A DNA stretch of 64,000 bases, from positions 868,001 through 932,000 of the forward strand of contig NZ_VKOG01000001.1 of NCBI RefSeq assembly GCF_007474545.1, written 5' to 3'. Below the pieces are notes generated by a model. It was not told where the DNA came from, made no database searches, and worked only from the letters and a program-made list of their open reading frames with translations. This document shows positions 27,501 through 36,645 of this stretch, in pieces (position 1 is the first letter of the stretch; the number at the start of each line of letters is the position of its first letter). A program made the position numbers and the translations under genes. The DNA comes from Chryseobacterium binzhouense. GTDB taxonomy: Bacteria; Bacteroidota; Bacteroidia; Flavobacteriales; Weeksellaceae.

Positions 27501-27546
27501 ATGTAACAAAAGTAGCGGTACAGCTTTTCCGATATGTTCAACTTTG
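27501..27546 (+). promoter_or_regulatory. Sulfur-locus operator/promoter, copy 1 (tauE)
   Basis: ATGTAACAAAAGTAGCGGTA at 27501-27520; the TTTG of a -7 box starts at 27543, 23 bp after the motif end. The gene start is at 27565. The element sits about where a class II activator binds. Confidence 0.7.
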
Positions 27547-27564
27547 CATCATAAAGTTGAGAAT

Positions 27565-28470
27565 ATGGAAGTTTTTGGATATATCGCTTCGGTTTTAATA
27601 GGCATTTCATTAGGTTTAATCGGTGGAGGTGGAAGTATTCTCACCGTTCCCGTTTTGGTTTATCTTTTCGGATTAGACGCTTTTCTGGCTACAGAATATT
27701 CACTTTTTATTGTCGGGATCAGCAGTATGGTTGGTTCCGTTTCCTACTTCAAAAAAGGATTGGTCAATATAAAAACCGCTTTAGTTTTTGGGATTCCTTC
27801 TATTATTTCAATATTTCTGACCAGAAATTATATTCTTCCGTTGATTCCCGATGAGGTTTTTACCATCAGAGCTTTTGTGGTAACCAAAGATATTTTTCTT
27901 CTTTTGATTTTTGCGGGATTAATGATTCTCGCTTCCTATAAAATGATTCAGAAAAGCACGGAGTTACACATCGAAGCAGTTCATTCTAATAAAAACAGCG
28001 CGATTTTGGCAGCAGGAGAAGGTTCGGTTGTAGGAATCTTGACAGGCTTAGTCGGAGCAGGAGGCGGATTTATGATCATTCCCGCTCTTGTTAATCTTCT
28101 CAAAACCCCGATGAAAGTTGCTATCGGAACATCGCTTGTCATCATTTCCCTCAATTCCCTTATCGGTTTTTTTACCTCAATGCACAATGTTGCCATAGAC
28201 TGGAAATTACTTGCAACAGTATCATCTATCGCTATTGTCGGGATCATTATAGGATCACAATTATCCAAAAAGATTGACGGAAAAAAAACTGAAACCGGCT
28301 TTTGGATGGTTTATTCTCGTAATGGGAATTTACATCATCGTAAAAGAAGTTTTTCTCTAATTATTTTTTGGGCAGCTATTTCCGTCCTCCGTTCCCGCTT
28401 TTTTGTTCCGCTCCGCTGCACAAAAAGAGCTCCACTCAGGCCGGGCTGCAAGAGATTCGTTTTCTGGTAA
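27565..28470 (+). CDS. TauE/SafE sulfite exporter, 3' end frameshifted
   Basis: Start chosen at MEVFGYIASVLIGISLGLIGGGGS (27565). The two TauE halves are evident: GLIGGGGSILTVPVLVYLF and GVVGILTGLVGAGGGFMIIPALVN. Members export sulfite or related organosulfonates and in cst-type operons remove the product of persulfide oxidation. A TTTT run at 28300-28303 appears to have one T too many: the other frame reads GFGWFILVMGIYIIVKEVFL and stops at 28360, the expected 264-residue length, whereas the actual frame runs into repeat DNA to 28470. Either a real lesion of the last span or a sequence error. Confidence 0.8.
   Translation: MEVFGYIASVLIGISLGLIGGGGSILTVPVLVYLFGLDAFLATEYSLFIVGISSMVGSVSYFKKGLVNIKTALVFGIPSIISIFLTRNYILPLIPDEVFTIRAFVVTKDIFLLLIFAGLMILASYKMIQKSTELHIEAVHSNKNSAILAAGEGSVVGILTGLVGAGGGFMIIPALVNLLKTPMKVAIGTSLVIISLNSLIGFFTSMHNVAIDWKLLATVSSIAIVGIIIGSQLSKKIDGKKTETGFWMVYSRNGNLHHRKRSFSLIIFWAAISVLRSRFFVPLRCTKRAPLRPGCKRFVFW
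28366..28470 (+). repeat. GC-rich intergenic repeat with hairpin
   Basis: GC-rich in contrast to its surroundings, with GCTTTTTTGT able to pair with ACAAAAAGAGC around a CCGCTCCGCTG centre (~28398-28431). A decayed relative lies at ~34948-35010 behind the tauE pseudogene, so the repeat travelled with the duplicated gene. Confidence 0.5.
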
Positions 28471-28492
28471 AGAATAACATAATATCAAACTT

Positions 28493-28538
28493 CTGTAACA
28501 AAAATAGCGGAGCAGCAAATTCTAAAAATATAATTTTG
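28493..28538 (+). promoter_or_regulatory. Sulfur-locus operator/promoter, copy 2 (YeeE pair)
   Basis: CTGTAACAAAAATAGCGGAG at 28493-28512 (16 of 20 matches to copy 1); the -7 box TAATTTTG has its TTTG at 28535, again 23 bp after the motif. The gene starts at 28559. Confidence 0.7.
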
Positions 28539-28558
28539 TAATATAATAATCAATAACA

Positions 28559-29122
28559 ATGGTAGAAATCATAAAACAACCCTGGCCGTGGTATGTTGCC
28601 GGACCGTTAATCGGGCTTACCGTACCGGCTTTGCTCATTTTGGGCAACAAATCTTTCGGAATCAGTTCATCTCTAAGGCATATTTGTGCAGCCTGCATTC
28701 CTGCCAACATCGGCTTTTTCAAATACGACTGGAAAAAAGAACTCTGGAATTTATTTTTTGTCCTCGGCATTTTGCTGGGCGGCATTATCGCATCTCAATT
28801 TTTGATGAACCCCGGAGAAATAACGGTCAATACAAATCTGAAAACCGAACTTGCAACTTACGGCATTACCGATTACAGCAATCTCGTTCCTGTTCAGCTG
28901 ATGAATTTTGCGAGTCTTTTAACGCTTAAAGGTTTCATTACAATGGTTGTCGGCGGATTTTTGGTAGGTTTTGGAACCCGTTATGCAGGTGGTTGTACCA
29001 GCGGACACGCCATTATGGGATTGGCAAATCTGCAGTTACCATCGCTTATTGCGACAATATGCTTTATGGCAGGCGGTTTTTTAATGGCGAATGTTATTTT
29101 GCCGATAATTCTTTCACTTTAA
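28559..29122 (+). CDS. YeeE/YedE-type sulfur permease, first half
   Basis: 187 residues, four to five membrane spans, with the family signature [14 protein letters not shown] (Cys in GGC) about residue 146. YeeE/YedE (TsuA, PmpA/PmpB) proteins move thiosulfate or other sulfur species using conserved Cys residues. In this clade the transporter is split into two small genes; the second follows after 11 bp. The two spans after the first Pro-rich turn contain [12 protein letters not shown]. Preceded by its own copy of the locus operator. Confidence 0.85.
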
Positions 29123-29133
29123 TTTTAAAAAAA

Positions 29134-29616
29134 ATGGCAACAGAAAAAGATATACGTCATCAGGACAGCGTTTGTACCAACGAAAGTCATCTGACGCACC
29201 AATGGTATTACAATCTGAAATACCTTGTAGTGGGTATTCTATTCGGGATTGTATTTGTAAAAGCAGAGATCATCAGTTGGTTCAGGATTCAGGAAATGTT
29301 TCGTCTGCAATCGTTTTTTATGTATGGTGTGATAGGAAGTGCAGTATTAACAGCGATGATTTCGGTTTTCATCATTAAAAAGTTCAATATTAAAACAATT
29401 TATGGAGAGAAGATCTCTATCGCATCGAAAAAATTCAATAAAGGTCAAATCTATGGAGGGCTGATTTTTGGATTTGGCTGGGCAATGACAGGTGCTTGTC
29501 CGGGACCGCTTTTCGCACAGATCGGAACAGGTGCTTTGGCAGTTGTGGTTACTTTGCTTAGTGCTATTTTCGGAACTTGGGTCTATGGATATTTGAGGGA
29601 TAAATTGCCCCATTGA
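29134..29616 (+). CDS. YeeE/YedE-type sulfur permease, second half
   Basis: 160 residues, start ATG at 29134 (the open frame extends upstream inside the previous gene but without support). Three to four spans; the signature GFGWAMTGACPGPLFAQIGTG carries the conserved Cys. It pairs with the preceding half to form one transporter, as in PmpA/PmpB. Substrate (thiosulfate, sulfite or persulfide) is inferred from the locus. Confidence 0.85.
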   Translation: MATEKDIRHQDSVCTNESHLTHQWYYNLKYLVVGILFGIVFVKAEIISWFRIQEMFRLQSFFMYGVIGSAVLTAMISVFIIKKFNIKTIYGEKISIASKKFNKGQIYGGLIFGFGWAMTGACPGPLFAQIGTGALAVVVTLLSAIFGTWVYGYLRDKLPH

Positions 29617-29626
29617 TTCTGCACTT

Positions 29627-29672
29627 ATGTAACAAAAGTAGCGGTATAGCATTGTGCAAAACCCGAAATTTG
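29627..29672 (+). promoter_or_regulatory. Sulfur-locus operator/promoter, copy 3 (main operon)
   Basis: An exact copy of the 20-mer at 29627-29646; TTTG of the -7 region at 29669-29672, 23 bp after the motif. It drives the 29714-33907 operon. Confidence 0.72.
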
Positions 29673-29713
29673 TACTATAAAATTAAAAAAGTATAACCCT
29701 AAAAGATTACATT

Positions 29714-31105
29714 ATGTTTTTTCAGCATATTTATGATAAAAGCCTTGCGCAGGCAAGTTATTTAATCGGATGTCAGGCAAAAGGCGAAGCCATTGTTATT
29801 GATGCCAAAAGAGATATTGACACCTATCTTCAGATTGCCAAAGAAAATAATCTGACAATCACACACATTTCCGAAACCCACATTCACGCCGATTTTTTGT
29901 CGGGTTCCAGAGAACTTGCAGAAGTAACGGGAGCTAAAATGTATCTTTCGGATGAAGGTGGGGAAGATTGGCAATATCAGTTTCCGCATATCGGATTAAC
30001 CAATGGAGACACTATCAAAGTCGGAAATTTAACTTTAAAAGTCATTCACACGCCGGGACATACGCCGGAAAGCATCAGCTTTTTATTGACCGATCATCCT
30101 GCAACGGACGAACCGGTAATGATTTTCACGGGAGATTTTGTTTTCGTCGGCGATATTGGAAGACCAGATCTATTGGAAAAAGCAGCAGGAATTACCGGAA
30201 CTCAGGAAAAAGGAGCGAAAGAAATGTTTCATTCTGTTCAGAATTTTAGCAAGTTGCCGGAATTTATTCAGGTGTGGCCAGGACACGGTGCAGGTTCGGC
30301 TTGCGGAAAAGCTTTAGGCGCAGTTCCGAGTTCTACTGTGGGATATGAAAAAATCAGAAACTGGGCTTTTCAGTATGAAGAAGACGAGGATGGTTTTGTA
30401 GAATACCTGTTGGAAGGACAGCCGGAACCTCCGAAATACTTCGCAATGATGAAGAAACTCAACAAAGTGGATAGACCTTTATTGACAGAAGTTCCAAAAC
30501 ATCCAAAACTTTCCAAAGAAGAATTTTTGAAAGCTTATCAAAACGGTGTTAAAATTATAGACACGAGAAATAAAGCAGATTTTGCCGATGGTTTTATACC
30601 AAACAGCATTAATATTCAGGGTAATAATTCGTTTTCTACCTGGATGGGATGGATGGTCAATTATTCTGAGTCGTTTATTTTAGTTGCGCACGAAGAACAA
30701 ATGGAAGATCTTACCCGAAAACTAATGAGAATCGGGATGGATCAGATGATGGGCTATATTGATGATGTGGAAAGTTTGGAATTTGAGTTACAGACTGCTG
30801 ATATTATTGATATTGAAGATTTCAAATCATATCTGAACAGAGATGATATTCAGGTGGTTGATGTAAGAAATAAAACCGAATATGACGCAGGACGTATTGA
30901 AAATGCTGAGAATGTCTTTGTGGGAACTTTAGTGGATAATCTGGATAAAATTTCCCGTGAAAAGCCAATCGTAATTCATTGCCAAAGTGGCGACAGAGCG
31001 GCGATTGCCTATTCTCTACTGAAGAAAAACGGTTTTGAGTACGTGAAAAATTTCTCCGGCGGAATGAAAGAATGGATGGAAAAAGCGAACCCTATAAAAA
31101 ATTAA
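29714..31105 (+). CDS. CstB-like persulfide dioxygenase-rhodanese fusion (1)
   Basis: 463 residues. An N-terminal metallo-beta-lactamase domain of the ETHE1/persulfide-dioxygenase type: THIHAD (55-60), HTPGHTPES, TGDFVFVGDIGRPD, WPGHGAGSACGK. A middle rhodanese fold (~265-360) without active-site Cys (FILVAHEEQME) and a C-terminal rhodanese with Cys in HCQSGDR (~422). This order, with a dead middle rhodanese, is that of CstB, which oxidises persulfides to thiosulfate/sulfite. First gene of an operon of seven closely spaced genes. Confidence 0.88.
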   Translation: MFFQHIYDKSLAQASYLIGCQAKGEAIVIDAKRDIDTYLQIAKENNLTITHISETHIHADFLSGSRELAEVTGAKMYLSDEGGEDWQYQFPHIGLTNGDTIKVGNLTLKVIHTPGHTPESISFLLTDHPATDEPVMIFTGDFVFVGDIGRPDLLEKAAGITGTQEKGAKEMFHSVQNFSKLPEFIQVWPGHGAGSACGKALGAVPSSTVGYEKIRNWAFQYEEDEDGFVEYLLEGQPEPPKYFAMMKKLNKVDRPLLTEVPKHPKLSKEEFLKAYQNGVKIIDTRNKADFADGFIPNSINIQGNNSFSTWMGWMVNYSESFILVAHEEQMEDLTRKLMRIGMDQMMGYIDDVESLEFELQTADIIDIEDFKSYLNRDDIQVVDVRNKTEYDAGRIENAENVFVGTLVDNLDKISREKPIVIHCQSGDRAAIAYSLLKKNGFEYVKNFSGGMKEWMEKANPIKN

Positions 31106-31106
31106 G

Positions 31107-31421
31107 ATGGATATTTTATCAATGTTATTCGGAAAAAAAGACAATGCAGCACTGGACAAAGCGTTGGAAGAAGGCGCTTTTTTGGTAGATGTAAGAACGA
31201 CCGGAGAATTTGCTTCGGGAAGTGCAGAAGGAGCTGTTAATATTCCTTTGGATGTTCTGAAAGATCAGATTTCCAAGTTCAGGAACAAGAAAAATATCAT
31301 CGTTTTCTGCAGAAGCGGAAATCGCAGCGCAATGGCAAAAGGCACATTGGAACGAAACGGATTCACAAATGTTCTCAACGGTGGCAGTGTACAGAATATG
31401 ATCAAACTTTTGGAACAATAA
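31107..31421 (+). CDS. Single-domain rhodanese
   Basis: 104 residues, cytoplasmic. LVDVRTTGEFASG and the active loop CRSGNRS with Cys68. A sulfur carrier/sulfurtransferase that probably passes sulfane sulfur to or from the CstB-like enzyme 1 bp upstream. Its stop overlaps the methyltransferase start (TAATG). Confidence 0.9.
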   Translation: MDILSMLFGKKDNAALDKALEEGAFLVDVRTTGEFASGSAEGAVNIPLDVLKDQISKFRNKKNIIVFCRSGNRSAMAKGTLERNGFTNVLNGGSVQNMIKLLEQ

Positions 31422-32032
31422 TGAAAGATTTTTGGGATGAAAGATACCGCCAGTCGGATTTTGTGTACGGAGATCAGCCTAATGTCTATTTTGAGGAAAA
31501 ATTGGCTGAACTCACTCCCGGAAAAGCTCTTTTTTCTGCTGAAGGAGAGGGCAGGAATGCTGTATACGCCGCAACTCAGGGTTTTGAAGTCGAAGCTTTT
31601 GACCAAAGTGAAGAAGGCAAAAAGAAAGCGATGAAACTTGCTGAAAAGAAATCTATGAAAATAAATTATACAACGGTTTCGGCAGATACAATAAGTTATG
31701 AAAAAGAAAGTTTTGACCTTTTAGTAATGGTATTTGCCCATTTTCCTGAAACATTTAGACGGGATTTGCACAGACGGTTTTCATCGCTCGTGAAGAAAGG
31801 CGGTAAAATTATTCTGGAAGGTTTCAGTAAAGAGCATTCTAAATTTCAAGACGAAAATCTAAATGCAGGCGGACCAAAAAATTTGGAAATGCTTTATGAT
31901 CTGGAGGAATTGAAAGCTGATTTTTTAGATTTCGATTTTCAGGAAGCATATATTTCCGAAACCGTACTGAATGAAGGTGCTTATCATCAGGGAAAAGCTT
32001 CGGTTGTACGCTTATTTGGTACAAAAAAATAA
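31421..32032 (+). CDS. Class I SAM methyltransferase, TehB/thiol-methyltransferase-like
   Basis: 203 residues: the N-terminal FWDERYRQSDFVYGDQPNVYF, typical of thiopurine/TehB-type enzymes, then LFSAEGEGRNAVYAA (motif I), EAFDQSEEG and FDLLVMVFAHF. Within a sulfur-detoxification operon, S-methylation of sulfide or thiols is a reasonable guess, not shown. Overlaps the rhodanese gene by one base. Confidence 0.75.
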   Translation: MKDFWDERYRQSDFVYGDQPNVYFEEKLAELTPGKALFSAEGEGRNAVYAATQGFEVEAFDQSEEGKKKAMKLAEKKSMKINYTTVSADTISYEKESFDLLVMVFAHFPETFRRDLHRRFSSLVKKGGKIILEGFSKEHSKFQDENLNAGGPKNLEMLYDLEELKADFLDFDFQEAYISETVLNEGAYHQGKASVVRLFGTKK

Positions 32033-32040
32033 AGAAAAGT

Positions 32041-32274
32041 ATGGATAATTTATTTAAAAACTGGAACTTTGTAAGACTGCTTCGTTTGGCAATGGGAGTT
32101 TTCCTTGTAGTAGAAGCCGTACAATCTGGAATGTGGATTTTAGTAGCTGTCGGAACAGTTTTTGTGGTAATGCCATTATTGAATATCGGCTGTTGTGCTG
32201 CGGTAAATTGTTCGGTATCAACTCGTGATCCAAAAAACAGCAGTGATGAAGTACATTATGAGGAAATTAAATAA
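32041..32274 (+). CDS. DUF2892 (YgaP-like) membrane protein
   Basis: 77 residues with two spans (LRLAMGVFLVVEAVQSGMW, LVAVGTVFVVMPLLNIGCC) and a Cys cluster GCCAAVNC. The same inner-membrane domain is fused to rhodanese in YgaP, where sulfur moves at the membrane; here it is separate but within the rhodanese operon, so it probably serves the same partner. 8 bp after the methyltransferase. Confidence 0.8.
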   Translation: MDNLFKNWNFVRLLRLAMGVFLVVEAVQSGMWILVAVGTVFVVMPLLNIGCCAAVNCSVSTRDPKNSSDEVHYEEIK

Positions 32275-32286
32275 AAATTGAGAAAA

Positions 32287-32583
32287 ATGAATAAATTTCA
32301 GGAACTAATCAGTCAGGAGAAACCCGTATTGGTAGATTTCTTTGCAGAATGGTGCGGTCCGTGCAAAATGCAGGCTCCCATTCTTCAGGATCTCAAAAAA
32401 AATATAGGAGATGCAGCAAGTATCGTTAAAATTGACATTGATAAAAATCAGGCAATTGCTGTACAGTTTGGAATCAGAAGTGTTCCGACTCTGATGATTT
32501 TTAAAAAAGGTGAAGTGAAATGGAAACAATCTGGTGTTTTTCAGGCAGATGAACTGGAAAGATTAATTAAACAAAACATCTAA
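32287..32583 (+). CDS. Thioredoxin
   Basis: 98 residues, start ATG at 32287 (a TTG at 32278 is also in frame). Active site AEWCGPC (20-26), then KIDIDKNQAIAVQFGIRSVPT with the cis-Pro. No signal peptide, so cytoplasmic; likely reduces the sulfurated Cys residues of the rhodaneses or the persulfide products. Ends directly before the next start codon. Confidence 0.92.
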   Translation: MNKFQELISQEKPVLVDFFAEWCGPCKMQAPILQDLKKNIGDAASIVKIDIDKNQAIAVQFGIRSVPTLMIFKKGEVKWKQSGVFQADELERLIKQNI

Positions 32584-33294
32584 ATGTATAAAAACCTAAT
32601 CGTTTTATTTTTTGTCATCCTATTGACAGGTTGTGGAAAAGCTCAGAATAATGGCGAAAGCAATCTTTCTGCTACAGAATTTTCTAAAAAATTAAACCAG
32701 ACCAAAGATGCACAGTTGGTAGATGTGAGAACACCGGGAGAATTCTGGAACGGACATTTGAAAAACGCAATGAACATCGACTGGAATGCCGATGATTTCG
32801 CTGAAAAAGCAAAAGCTTTAGACAAAGAGAAACCTGTTTTTCTGTACTGTATGAGCGGACCTAGAAGTACGGCTGCAGCGGCAAAACTTCAGGAGATGGG
32901 TTTTAAAAATGTGTATGAAATGCAGGGCGGAATGATGAAATGGAGAAATGCAAATCTTCCGGAAATCAAGGCTTCTACTTCCGCAGGAATGAGCCTTTCT
33001 CAATACCATGAATTGCTGAAAAGCGATACGCCGGTTTTGGTAGATTTCTATGCAGAATGGTGTGCTCCGTGCAAAAAAATGGAGCCGTATCTTACGAAAA
33101 TGTCCACCGAAATGCCTGATAAGGTGAAAATTATCAGAATTAATGCTGATGAAAATACAGAACTTTGCAAAACATTAAATGTTTCTGCACTTCCTGTTTT
33201 AAAACTTTATAAAAATGATCAGTTAGTCTGGGATAACCTGGGTTTTGCCGGCGAAGAGCAGGTAAAAGCGCAATTGCTACAGATAAAAAATTGA
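32584..33294 (+). CDS. Rhodanese-thioredoxin fusion lipoprotein
   Basis: 236 residues. Lipobox ILLTGC (Cys17) places it outside the cytoplasmic membrane. Residues ~30-125 are a rhodanese with Cys89 (YCMSGPRS); residues ~140-236 a thioredoxin with WCAPC (159-163). The fusion links a sulfane-sulfur carrier to a disulfide reductase in the periplasm. It follows the cytoplasmic thioredoxin without a gap and precedes a membrane TlpA-type protein, suggesting an envelope sulfur relay. Confidence 0.88.
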   Translation: MYKNLIVLFFVILLTGCGKAQNNGESNLSATEFSKKLNQTKDAQLVDVRTPGEFWNGHLKNAMNIDWNADDFAEKAKALDKEKPVFLYCMSGPRSTAAAAKLQEMGFKNVYEMQGGMMKWRNANLPEIKASTSAGMSLSQYHELLKSDTPVLVDFYAEWCAPCKKMEPYLTKMSTEMPDKVKIIRINADENTELCKTLNVSALPVLKLYKNDQLVWDNLGFAGEEQVKAQLLQIKN

Positions 33295-33298
33295 TAAT

Positions 33299-33907
33299 TT
33301 GGAAAAATTTAAAATATGGTTTCGGAAAAACTGGAGTACAACGATTCTGGTTCTAGTATTTATCGTATTGCTGGTAAGTCCGGATGCAAAAGCCTGGCTG
33401 ATGAGACAGATTATTTCAACTGGTCTTCTGAATTCAAAGATTGAAAAAAAGAAAGCAGAACCAAGTTCTGAGTCGAGTTCTTTAGCCATCACTGAAAATT
33501 TCAGCATCAGAAACGAAAAAGGAGAAGTTATCAATACTTCTGAACTCAAAGGAAAAGTGGCTTTCATTAATTTTTGGGCATCGTGGTGTCCGCCTTGCCG
33601 GGCGGAATTTCCATCAATTCAGAAGTTTTACAATCAATATAAATCAAATAAAGATTTGGTTTTTCTAACGGTAAATTTGGATGAAAAGCCTGCTGTAGGT
33701 AAAATGTATCTCGAAAAAGAACAGTTTACAGTGCCATTTTTAGTTCCGGAAGGTTCTATTCCGTCTTCATTTTTTAATGGCTCACTTCCTACGACGGTAG
33801 TTTTGGATAAATCGGGAAAAATCAGGATGCATCACGCAGGAATGGCAGATTACAGCAAAGATTCTTTCTATAAAGAGATTGATCAACTTTTAAATGAACA
33901 TCTTTGA
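33299..33907 (+). CDS. Membrane-anchored TlpA-like thiol:disulfide protein
   Basis: TTG is the only usable start (33299); the first in-frame ATG lies behind the membrane anchor. An N-terminal anchor (WSTTILVLVFIVLLVS) precedes a TlpA/ResA-like thioredoxin fold with WCPPC (96-100) and LPTTVVLDKSGKI. It probably keeps the fused rhodanese-thioredoxin reduced in the periplasm. Last intact gene of the operon, 4 bp after the lipoprotein. Confidence 0.85.
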   Translation: MEKFKIWFRKNWSTTILVLVFIVLLVSPDAKAWLMRQIISTGLLNSKIEKKKAEPSSESSSLAITENFSIRNEKGEVINTSELKGKVAFINFWASWCPPCRAEFPSIQKFYNQYKSNKDLVFLTVNLDEKPAVGKMYLEKEQFTVPFLVPEGSIPSSFFNGSLPTTVVLDKSGKIRMHHAGMADYSKDSFYKEIDQLLNEHL

Positions 33908-33911
33908 CAAT

Positions 33912-34038
33912 ATGATAAAAGTAATGATTTTGTCTGTTTTCCTGATCGCCTTCACAAGTTTTTCCCCAAGATAAAACCGTTTGTGAATCTGTAATTCGCA
34001 AGGGTTCATATTTAAATTTATTTATAAGTCAATATTAA
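33912..34038 (+). pseudogene. Short secreted peptide gene, apparently frameshifted
   Basis: The ATG at 33912 opens MIKVMILSVFLIAFTSFSP-R-stop (20 residues). If one C of the CCCC run at 33964-33967 is removed, the frame continues after the usual cleavage motif SFSQ-DK to a stop at 34036-34038 (41 residues). A signal peptide that fits exactly across the shift suggests a real gene with a lesion or a sequencing error. Confidence 0.4.
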
Positions 34039-34085
34039 CTATTTTTGTGTCAGAGATTTTTTAATTAAATACATTACTATAAAAC

Positions 34086-34718
34086 ATGCAGCCCTCCATA
34101 CTTGCTTCAGAATTCACTTCTTCACCTGAATTGCTTGAAAAACTCTATAAGTATGGAGTAACAAAAACCTATCAGGAAGGAGATGTAATTTTAGATGAAA
34201 ATTCATCTATCCGTTCCATTCCTATTGTGATGAAAGGGATGATGAAAGTCATTCGTACGGAAGAAGACGGACGCGAAATTCTCTTGTATTACATCAAAGC
34301 AGGGGAAAGCTGCATCATGTCTTTTCTTGGTGGTATGCACAATGAAAAAAGCATCGTAAAAGCCGAAGTAGAAGAAGATACGGAAATTCTTTTTCTGCCT
34401 GTTGATAAAGTTTCGCTCTTTATCAAAGAATATCCGGAATGGCTGGATTATATTTTCAGACTCTATCATAAAAGGTTTGAAGAACTGTTGGATATTATCA
34501 ACGCTATTGCATTCAAAAAAGTAGATGAAAGATTATTGAATCTTCTTCATAAAAAATCTGAGAATCTTAATTCAAAAACCATTAATGTCACCCACGAACA
34601 ACTTGCCAACGAACTCGGTACGGCAAGAGTTGTTGTTTCAAGACTCCTCAAACAGCTTGAGGATTCAGGGAAACTTATGCTCGGACGAAATAAAATCACG
34701 CTTTCAGGTAATCCTTAG
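34086..34718 (+). CDS. Crp/Fnr family transcriptional regulator
   Basis: 210 residues: a cyclic-nucleotide-binding-type beta-barrel (~25-120), dimer helix and Crp-type winged helix with recognition helix TARVVVSRLLKQLEDSG (~175-192). No N-terminal Cys set for an iron-sulfur cluster is visible, so it is not a classical Fnr. It lies inside the sulfur locus, between the main operon and the second CstB-like gene, and is the natural candidate to bind the repeated operator (inference). Its own promoter lacks that operator. Confidence 0.9.
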   Translation: MQPSILASEFTSSPELLEKLYKYGVTKTYQEGDVILDENSSIRSIPIVMKGMMKVIRTEEDGREILLYYIKAGESCIMSFLGGMHNEKSIVKAEVEEDTEILFLPVDKVSLFIKEYPEWLDYIFRLYHKRFEELLDIINAIAFKKVDERLLNLLHKKSENLNSKTINVTHEQLANELGTARVVVSRLLKQLEDSGKLMLGRNKITLSGNP

Positions 34719-35150
34719 ACTTTCTGTAACAAATTAGCAATATATCTTTCCGAAATTCAATTTCGGGTACATCGCCTCGGCTTCAATAGAAATTTTATTT
34801 GGCTTAATTTGCGGTAGCGGAAATATTATTAGCTTTCCTATTTTTTGTTTATATTTTTTGTTAGACGTGTTTTAGCGACATCACTTTTAGATAGGCTTAG
34901 TACGACTTATGATTATTCCTGTTATTGTCTATTCTAAAAAATCCAGTCTGTGTTCCCGTTTTTTCCGTTTTACTTTATAAATAGAGAACTATTCATGCAG
35001 GATTGCGAAAGATTCAGTATTAAAAAGCATCAATATTGCCCAGCATAATGAAAATTAATTAATAGTTCTTTTATAAAGATTATCTGCTTTATGAACTTAA
35101 AACAACGAAAGTCAAAAACTCTGGCAAATTTTAAAAAATAGAAGTCTTTT
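34719..35150 (+). pseudogene. Decayed tauE copy with its operator and downstream repeat
   Basis: A degenerate operator CTGTAACAAATTAGCAATA (34724-34742), then GGGTACATCGCCTCGGCTTC (from ~34765) matching the start of tauE, AATTTGCGGTAGCGGAAATA (GLIGGGGS region), a deletion, ATGATTATTCCTGTTATTG (~34909, the FMIIPALV region) and a decayed form of the repeat at 28366-28470. No open frame survives. It is clearly homologous to the intact locus 7 kb upstream, so this part was duplicated once. Confidence 0.65.
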
Positions 35151-35196
35151 ATGTAACAAAAGTAGCGGTATATAAAATCTCAAACTCAGAAATTTG
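35151..35196 (+). promoter_or_regulatory. Sulfur-locus operator/promoter, copy 4 (second CstB-like gene)
   Basis: An exact copy of the 20-mer at 35151-35170, TTTG at 35193-35196 (23 bp after the motif), gene start at 35233. Confidence 0.72.
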
Positions 35197-35232: not shown

Positions 35233-36645
35233 ATGAAAATAGAACAGATTTATACAGGATGTCTTGCACAAGGTGCATATTATATCGTTTCAAATGGTGA
35301 AGCAGCAATTATAGATCCATTAAGAGAAACGCAGCCTTATATTGAAAGATTGAAAAAAGATGATGTTACTCTTAAATATATTTTTGAAACACATTTTCAT
35401 GCAGATTTTGTAAGCGGACATTTGGATTTAAGCAGAAAAACAACAGCACCTATCGTTTATGGACCGACTGCAAAACCAGAATTTGAAGCCATTGTTGCAG
35501 AGGATAATCAGGTTTTTGAGATCGGAAATATCACCATAAAAGTTCTTCATACACCTGGTCATACAATGGAAAGTTCATCATTTCTTCTTATTGACGAATA
35601 TGGCAAAGAGAAAGCATTATTTAGTGGAGATACTTTATTTTTAGGAGATGTAGGCCGTCCCGATTTGGCTCAGAAAGCAGCCAACATGACACAGGAAGAA
35701 CTGGCTGGTTTACTATACGATAGTTTGTATCAGAAAATTTTGCCACTTGATGATAATATTACCGTTTATCCGGCTCACGGAGCAGGTTCAGCATGCGGGA
35801 AAAATATGCAGAAAGAAACGGTAGATTCATTAGGAAATCAAAAGAAAACCAATTATGCGCTCAATCAGAAAGATAAGCAAAGTTTCATCAAAGCGGTTAC
35901 AGACGGACTTCTTCCGCCACCTGCTTACTTCGGGATGAACGTGGCAATGAATAAAAAAGGCTATGACAATTTTGATGAGGTATTATCCAAAGGTTTGCAA
36001 GCACTTTCTCCAGATGAATTTGAAGAAACGGCAGCACATTCCGGAGCTTTGGTGTTAGACGTGAGAAATGATGAAGATTTTGCGAGGGGATTTGTTCCGC
36101 AATCCGTTAATATCGGTCTGAACGGAGATTTTGCACCTTGGGTCGGCGCTTTGATTGTGGATGTGAAACAGCCAATTCTTCTCATAACCAATAAAAATGA
36201 AGAAGAGGAAACTGTGACCCGATTAAGTCGTGTAGGATTCGATAATGTTCTTGGATTTTTAAAAGGCGGATTTGGAGCGTGGAAAAATAGCGGAAAAGAA
36301 ACCGATTTCGTAAAAAGAATTTCAGCACAACAATTGGAGGATGAAATTAAAGAAAAAGAAGTCAACATCATTGATGTGAGAAAAGAAAGTGAGTATAATG
36401 CAGAACACTTAGATGGAGCATACAACAAACCTTTAGCTTATATCAATAATTGGATACATCATATCAATCCGGAAGAACATTTTTATCTGCATTGTGCAGG
36501 AGGTTACAGAAGCATGATGGCAGCAAGTATTCTACAAGCAAGAGGTTACAGAAATTTTACAGAAATAGAAGGCGGATTTAACGAAATTTCCAAAACAGAA
36601 CTTCCGAAAAGTGATTTTGTTTGTCAAAGTAAAGTTTTAAAATAA
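35233..36645 (+). CDS. CstB-like persulfide dioxygenase-rhodanese fusion (2)
   Basis: 470 residues with the same three-part layout as the 29714 gene but clearly diverged: THFHAD (53-58), HTPGHTMES, SGDTLFLGDVGRPDL, YPAHGAGSACGK; a middle rhodanese fold without Cys (PILLITNKNEEEE) and a C-terminal rhodanese with Cys in HCAGGYRS (~421). The active-site loop differs (CAGGYRS against CQSGDRA), so the two paralogues may prefer different sulfur substrates. Monocistronic, under its own operator copy. Confidence 0.88.
   Translation: MKIEQIYTGCLAQGAYYIVSNGEAAIIDPLRETQPYIERLKKDDVTLKYIFETHFHADFVSGHLDLSRKTTAPIVYGPTAKPEFEAIVAEDNQVFEIGNITIKVLHTPGHTMESSSFLLIDEYGKEKALFSGDTLFLGDVGRPDLAQKAANMTQEELAGLLYDSLYQKILPLDDNITVYPAHGAGSACGKNMQKETVDSLGNQKKTNYALNQKDKQSFIKAVTDGLLPPPAYFGMNVAMNKKGYDNFDEVLSKGLQALSPDEFEETAAHSGALVLDVRNDEDFARGFVPQSVNIGLNGDFAPWVGALIVDVKQPILLITNKNEEEETVTRLSRVGFDNVLGFLKGGFGAWKNSGKETDFVKRISAQQLEDEIKEKEVNIIDVRKESEYNAEHLDGAYNKPLAYINNWIHHINPEEHFYLHCAGGYRSMMAASILQARGYRNFTEIEGGFNEISKTELPKSDFVCQSKVLK

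Follow-up and report, generated by a model that had tools for sequence, protein, structure and literature searches.

The window analysed here, a 64,000-nt stretch of the 3.61-Mb genome of Chryseobacterium binzhouense (contig NZ_VKOG01000001.1, positions 868,001 to 932,000), carries a plus-strand cluster of sulfur genes in which a 20-bp sequence, a candidate operator, recurs upstream of four presumed transcription units and in which a Crp/Fnr-family protein is encoded. The first unit is a TauE/SafE family exporter gene (PF01925; 27565-28470), whose frame, compared by eye with the paralogue in the second locus described below (L014), departs, close to the 3′ end and at a homopolymer run (28260-28362), from the frame of its relatives; relatives have intact copies, and the departure may be real or an assembly error. 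The second comprises the two halves of a sulfur transporter, YeeE/TsuA-like (PF04143; 28559-29122) and YeeE/DUF6691-like (29134-29616); both half-length proteins score above the PF04143 cut-off and, with 41.3 and 20.5 bits, below the 400 bits of the TsuA/YeeE equivalog model. The third, a putative operon, opens with MBL-rhodanese-rhodanese protein A (29714-31105) and continues with a single-domain rhodanese (31107-31421; best models rhodanese, all below their cut-offs), an S-adenosylmethionine methyltransferase (31421-32032), a 77-aa protein without Pfam match that has counterparts in the second locus and in some relatives (32041-32274), a thioredoxin (32287-32583), a rhodanese-thioredoxin fusion with an N-terminus that looks lipoprotein-like by eye (32584-33294) and a TlpA/redoxin-like thiol-disulfide protein (33299-33907). 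Next come the Crp/Fnr gene (34086-34718), a TauE gene remnant (34762-34872; tblastn, 46% over 37 aa, E = 1.6e-6) and the fourth unit, MBL-rhodanese-rhodanese protein B (35233-36645). Both MBL-rhodanese proteins combine PF00753 with two PF00581 stretches and match 3r2u_A, which we take to be CstB, and 3tp9_A over nearly their full length (protein A over its full length). This is the CstB-type architecture of an MBL and two rhodanese domains, and suggests enzymes of the persulfide dioxygenase-sulfurtransferase type.

The initial annotation of this DNA had reported three exact copies of the 20-mer and one 16/20 copy, and their positions were re-found, all on the plus strand: operator 1 at 27501-27520 (exact; 5′ of the TauE/SafE-type gene), operator 2 at 28493-28512 (16/20, the 4 mismatches being counted by eye; 5′ of the YeeE-type pair), operator 3 at 29627-29646 (exact; 5′ of MBL-rhodanese gene A) and operator 4 at 35151-35170 (exact; 5′ of MBL-rhodanese gene B). 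Scanning the window for the 20-mer with up to 3 mismatches gave 3 matches, against 0 in 100 dinucleotide shuffles. In all four cases TTTG starts 23 bp after the 20-mer, again as originally described. Overlooked there was a decayed fifth copy (34724-34743, plus strand, read by eye), which precedes the TauE remnant, has a dyad one base shorter and lacks TTTG at +23. As far as sequence can tell, the element has the form of a Crp/Fnr-type dyad operator of 16 bp with two 6-bp halves, TGTAAC-N4-GTARCK, one half being degenerate (TGTAAC-N4-GTAGCG at 27502-27517 in operator 1).

Published start-site maps of flavobacteria allow the element to be placed relative to the promoter. For Flavobacterium psychrophilum, part of the mapping study describes a TAnnTTTG box at −12 to −5 (PMC9723704), and for 241 mapped promoters of Flavobacterium johnsoniae a passage of the corresponding article gives T−12, A−11, T−8, T−7, T−6 and G−5 as nearly invariant, with a −33 element that is “much less evident” (PMC6847099). 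On the former scale (PMC9723704), the plus-strand −7 boxes would lie at 27539-27546 in promoter 1 (TTTG at 27543-27546, no T at −12), at 28531-28538 in promoter 2 (TAATTTTG, T at −12 kept) and at 29665-29672 and 35189-35196 in promoters 3 and 4 (both GAAATTTG, no T at −12). The inferred starts are ~27551, ~28543, ~29677 and ~35201, with leaders of 14, 16, 37 and 32 nt (the TauE ATG read from the sequence). The dyad centre is 33.5 bp from TTTG, which, taken as −8 to −5, puts the centre at −41.5; with start sites inferred from the flavobacterial maps, this is the position of a class II activator and refines the earlier estimate of about 40 bp. The initial annotation also had the motif replacing the −33 box, and this stands in a positional sense, the 3′ end of the motif covering −34 to −31; as a replacement it is a weak notion, given how little evident the −33 element appears in the F. 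johnsoniae account (PMC6847099). A −33 box was itself set aside as a reading, with no TTG peak near −33 in 57 promoter-like sequences, a small and noisy set. Directly 3′ of the dyad, NGTA is conserved at −34 to −31 (G 100%, T 98%, A 87%); this GGTA/TGTA box is seen in promoters 1, 3 and 4 of the window, is almost invariant in orthologous promoters, and might serve as a contact for polymerase or represent a third GTA.

The initial annotation had proposed a genome-wide search for the motif. Allowing up to 3 mismatches in a 19-mer, we obtained 13 matches, and 3 for the reversed control. Seven of the 13 are sulfur promoters, four in the window and three at C9:509.3-511.8 kb on another stretch of the genome, and all seven have TTTG at +23. 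The other six, each with 3 mismatches, lie within open frames of 196-862 codons (6/6), with TTTG at +23 in none. The pattern TGTAACN4RTNRC-N26-TTTG occurs seven times in the genome, exactly at the seven sulfur promoters (reversed control, 1). With the gap left free between 11 and 41, there were 14 matches against 15 for the reversed control and hence no overall excess; the seven promoters make up half of the 14, all with a gap of 26, and the rest lie elsewhere at gaps of 14, 18, 18, 21, 23, 27 and 35. The match at gap 27 (G000, C1:235265-235310) is the sole one that is one base off the usual gap. We saw no sign of a larger regulon of the motif, a looser three-mismatch search of the genome giving 38 matches against 32 in reversed controls. 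From the four-unit sulfur regulon first proposed, the restriction of the operator to sulfur genes is thus retained, and the number is revised to seven sites in two loci. These counts also bear on whether the motif might be an extended element read by a sigma factor and not an activator site. Its fixed distance to the −7 box and its 3′ end at −34 to −31 would suit such an element; yet a pattern found only seven times in 3.6 Mb, each time at sulfur genes, and whose presence across genomes tracks one regulator gene (see below), leaves this explanation with next to no credibility.

The three additional sites belong to a second, paralogous sulfur locus (L014, 3684-10375, contig C9), which has its own Crp/Fnr gene (C9:511754-512365; 83-85% identical) and three operators like those of the window. 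Besides this regulator, it encodes TauE, a YeeE pair, MBL-rhodanese, rhodanese, methyltransferase, a small protein, thioredoxin and rhodanese-thioredoxin. In most of 80 named relatives (introduced below), the gene order around the spot of the TauE remnant is Crp/Fnr, TauE, MBL-rhodanese B and YeeE pair. Because the remnant and its decayed motif sit where most relatives have an intact TauE, the window looks, from its gene arrangement, like an ordinary locus with a dead TauE beside a block of the second type.

Alignment of orthologous loci, a further check proposed with the motif, bore the arrangement out. The 80 named loci used are the best 80 of 524 and come mostly from Chryseobacterium and Epilithonimonas, with one each from Emticicia, Chitinophagaceae and Sphingobacterium; the closest named relatives of the window regulator are from Chryseobacterium. 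The site is present in 79 of the 80, the 80th (L108) having its regulator gene at a contig end. Of 165 matches to the 15-mer core, 143 are promoter-near, at most 400 bp upstream of a locus gene: 64 before TauE, 53 before MBL-rhodanese B, 18 before the first YeeE gene (YeeE_a), 8 before MBL-rhodanese A and 0 before Crp/Fnr. TTTG follows 26 nt after the core in 133 of these 143 and at 25 or 27 nt in none; 8 of the 22 matches elsewhere also have it at 26. Counting distinct downstream sequences only, TTTG is in place in 59/59 for TauE, 48/50 for MBL-rhodanese B and 5/5 for MBL-rhodanese A. Since the 400 bp preceding the regulator gene hold no core match in any of the 80 loci, the level of the regulator is probably set outside the operator loop. 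In the loci from Emticicia, Chitinophagaceae and Sphingobacterium (L156, L158, L160), the regulator is 83-85% identical to that of the window and the other locus proteins are 36-81% identical; transfer or strong constraint are possible reasons.

Between promoter classes, the motifs are 0.90-0.95 identical and the spacers 0.27-0.43. Because the spacers diverged while the motif was conserved, shared promoter descent alone does not explain the motif. This speaks against the view that promoter duplication left the repeats behind and that they have no part in regulation, for which one could point to the two paralogous loci and the decayed third TauE copy in the genome. Such leftovers would hardly retain 90-95% alike motifs next to spacers only 27-43% alike, nor would the copy before the dead TauE have decayed while those before live genes did not, and we regard the duplication view as extremely improbable.

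Beyond these loci, 148 genomes of the family were searched with the pattern, which matched 338 times; its reversed control matched 36 times. A decoy with N21 for N26 behaved as background there, with 20 matches in 20 genomes and 45 for its own reversed control (hand tally). Presence of the site follows the regulator: of the 47 genomes encoding an orthologue of the 34086 protein (at least 67% identity), 46 have it, compared with 60 of 68 that have a weaker Crp/Fnr match only and 3 of 33 without a match at 1e-30 (orthologue versus none, Fisher 1.8e-17). In a 118-genome sample of the phylum (hand tally), three genomes of the same genus had 10 matches (controls, 2) and 26 others of the same order or class had 30 matches in 16 genomes (controls, 4). 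A phylum-wide pattern was ruled out, as the 89 genomes outside the class had 7 matches, below the 19 of the controls. Carriage on mobile elements was set aside as well: viral contigs held 0 exact matches of one operator variant, and plasmids gave 4 records at 1e-30, all less than 60% identical to the regulator.

That a Crp/Fnr gene lies inside the locus, as initially stated, is confirmed by the 34086-34718 product matching PF00027 (43.7 bits), PF13545 (39.8 bits) and PF00325 (23.7 bits), all above cut-off. The protein belongs to this superfamily and stays below the cut-offs of its well-known members, i.e. the cAMP-CRP equivalog (53 versus 266 bits), the FNR subfamily (23 versus 228 bits; only one conserved Cys and no N-terminal Cys cluster for a 4Fe-4S centre) and the NtcA equivalog (33.1 versus 244.95 bits). 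An article on CRP describes Arg180, Glu181 and Arg185 as its base contacts (PMC12531629). Aligned with solved CRP structures, R181, V182 and R186 of the regulator fall on CRP R180, E181 and R185, within a recognition helix R181-V182-V-V-S-R186. This R-V-V-V-S-R helix is found only in the two sulfur-locus proteins among the 13 PF00027 proteins of the genome. In classic work on CRP, changes at Glu181 reportedly shift TGTGA towards TGTAA.

The relation between helix and operator was examined in loci holding a regulator gene, with half-site position 4 left free on both sides and TTTG required at +26. To the named loci, 31 were added (L161-L191): nine have Glu-type and 15 remote Val-type regulators, and L167 and L168 were counted with the orthologues. 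Five were left out: L165, L166 and L170 because their stretches lack a regulator, L171 because it covers the same part of a contig as L090, and L179 because it has no site. TGTGA or TCAC occurs in at least one half in 16/16 sites of the Glu-type group (REAVSR/REATSR, 9 loci), in 3/30 sites of the remote Val-type group (RVVISR, 15 loci) and in 2/151 sites of the Val orthologues (RVVVSR, 84 loci), with Fisher values of 1e-9 and 2e-20, or 9e-9 and 2e-6 on distinct 16-mers. Across these sequences, half-site position 4 tracks the residue at the CRP Glu181 position, Val going with GTAAC and Glu with GTGAT. When TTTG was not required, it still stood at 26 in 16/16 Glu-type dyads and in 26/40 remote Val-type dyads. 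Remote Val-type relatives go with near-perfect dyads at the same distance, before TauE (L163) and YeeE and MBL-rhodanese genes (L164), and with a perfect TGTAAC-AAAT-GTTACA before a PF03601 gene (L164). This supports the initial reading of the window motif as a half-degenerate TGTAAC-N4-GTTACA dyad, and the GTARC direct repeat offered alongside it was set aside for the same reason. The Glu-type protein is a Crp/Fnr paralogue (~52-54% identical) in L161, L162, L169 and L186-L188, where operators stand before a small rhodanese gene and a gene of 431-436 aa, the latter an outer membrane efflux protein (PF02321) in L161; L180 has a second Crp/Fnr match, 31% identical. In G124, the stretch before MBL-rhodanese A (L170, 5341-7867) holds a gene resembling those of pyridine-nucleotide-disulfide oxidoreductases (PF07992; it may be SQR-like) and another of 439 aa that has no Pfam match.

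The site itself, its fixed spacing, its restriction to these units in the genome, its co-occurrence with the regulator and the covariation of operator and helix are established at the sequence level, and together they make it very probable that the Crp/Fnr protein of the locus is a one-component class II activator of a cst-like sulfur regulon, with the motif as its binding site. We infer that a dimer of the 34086 protein, or of its C9 paralogue, would bind the 16-bp dyad, which has its centre at −41.5 and a strong half next to a degenerate one, and would touch RNA polymerase in the class II manner at a mostly weak sigma-A promoter, the −7 box of which has A(−11) and TTTG and usually no T(−12). 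Four units would be co-induced in the window, namely the TauE exporter, the YeeE-type importer pair, MBL-rhodanese A with its rhodanese/thioredoxin operon, and MBL-rhodanese B; in the sister locus, there would be three. The share of sites with T(−12) is 5% among the 149 of orthologue type, 57% among the 30 of remote Val type and 100% among the 16 of Glu type, and A(−11) is found in 99% of the orthologue-type sites; T(−12) is absent from three of the four window promoters and retained in the YeeE promoter. A good activator site on a core promoter without T(−12) suggests that these promoters depend on the activator.

The same protein might instead bind and mainly repress, with sulfur species releasing it. 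The site overlaps −49 to −31 and could block polymerase, and the sulfane-sulfur regulators CstR and SqrR/BigR are given as repressors in one section of a 2022 review (PMC9774590). FisR, however, is given as an activator in that section (PMC9774590), and a centre at −41.5 phased to one base, next to a −7 box mostly without T(−12), fits a promoter needing help; we consider repression unlikely.

Several observations weigh against activation by the locus regulator. TTTG at +26 is missing from 10 of the 143 promoter-near sites (rows read by eye: TTTA stands there in seven and TTAG in one, another has a gap 6 bases shorter, and the last is seemingly unrelated), and among the 16 distinct sequences before YeeE_a only 8 have it in place. 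The weak-box argument does not extend to the YeeE promoters of the window and the sister locus, as both still have T(−12). The sites behind the helix comparison and the T(−12) frequencies were preselected for TTTG at +26, except for two dyad histograms, and the loci are related, their counts not being independent. One genome, G027, has the orthologue and no strict site, only a relaxed one. Conversely, G098 carries a perfect site (operator and promoter before an MBL-rhodanese gene, ~5228 in L165) but no regulator orthologue. The latter case would fit another regulator binding the motif, with the Crp/Fnr gene a mere neighbour, and so would the extension of the motif beyond the dyad (NGTA at −34 to −31). 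A mere neighbour would account neither for the co-occurrence of 46/47 versus 3/33 nor for operator bases that track a helix residue in three regulator groups, and we hold this explanation to be very unlikely.

As to the signal, attention falls on Cys76 of the regulator, the only Cys kept in 82/82 orthologues, a conservation that may be biased by one of the two search baits having contained it; a mixed alignment of 22 sequences has it throughout. Among the 13 PF00027 proteins of the genome, a Cys in exactly this column occurs only in the two sulfur-locus proteins, and three others have one a column away. In 3dv8, the nearest relative with a solved structure, this column likewise has a Cys (alignment read by eye). 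Given the bait, 3dv8 and the neighbouring-column Cys residues, we did not accept Cys76 as proof of sulfur sensing. The signal may, speculatively, be sulfane-sulfur species or thiosulfate, perhaps via Cys76. A bolder idea, possible though on balance doubtful, is that the Crp/Fnr protein is itself a reactive-sulfur sensor, persulfidated at Cys76 next to the ligand-pocket loop or binding a sulfur anion there, that turns on a regulon for cst-like detoxification and thiosulfate handling, and that a Glu/Val switch across the three regulator groups re-coded the operators (TGTGAT versus TGTAAC) while promoter distance stayed fixed.

NtcA of cyanobacteria, with GTA-N8-TAC operators, an R-V-x-x-x-R helix and an activator site near −41.5, shares with the present system the Crp/Fnr fold, GTA..TAC-type half-sites, Val at the CRP Glu181 position and the site location. 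In contrast to NtcA, the 34086 protein falls below the NtcA cut-off, would act on other targets and another promoter in another phylum, and would have an operator with one degenerate half. Class II promoters of Escherichia coli CRP have the same DNA-binding geometry, R181/V182/R186 aligning to R180/E181/R185, but TGTGA in place of TGTAA and no Bacteroidota −7 box, and the CRP model is not matched above its cut-off. Arg82 of CRP binds the cAMP phosphate; the protein described here has, in a gapped stretch of the alignment, Val at this position. The cst operon of Staphylococcus aureus encodes CstR, CstA, CstB, TauE and SQR; TauE and MBL-rhodanese-rhodanese enzymes recur here (full-length match to 3r2u_A at 1e-112), whereas the regulator would be a Crp/Fnr protein rather than the CsoR-type repressor CstR, and a YeeE-type pair is added. 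As in Bacteroidota sigma-A promoters (TTTG/TAnnTTTG), TTTG and A(−11) are kept, but T(−12) is lost in 95% of the 149 orthologue-type sites.

Few regulons and few activator operators seem to have been worked out for flavobacteria, though no search was aimed at this point. Among the matches listed in a search of the open PMC literature, neither this regulator nor this operator appeared; phrases containing a slash are unsearchable there, which makes this weak evidence of novelty. The section of the 2022 review on sensing of reactive sulfur species covers CstR, SqrR/BigR, PigS, FisR, OxyR, LasR and OhrR and names no Crp/Fnr protein (PMC9774590). The present analysis would define a regulon to the base, in terms of regulator, operator, promoter distance and targets. 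If true, cst-like sulfur detoxification would in these bacteria be under a one-component Crp/Fnr activator, as opposed to the CsoR-, ArsR- and FisR-type sensors, OxyR, LasR and OhrR of that section (PMC9774590), and the natural Glu/Val operator switch would offer a ready test of Crp/Fnr specificity rules.

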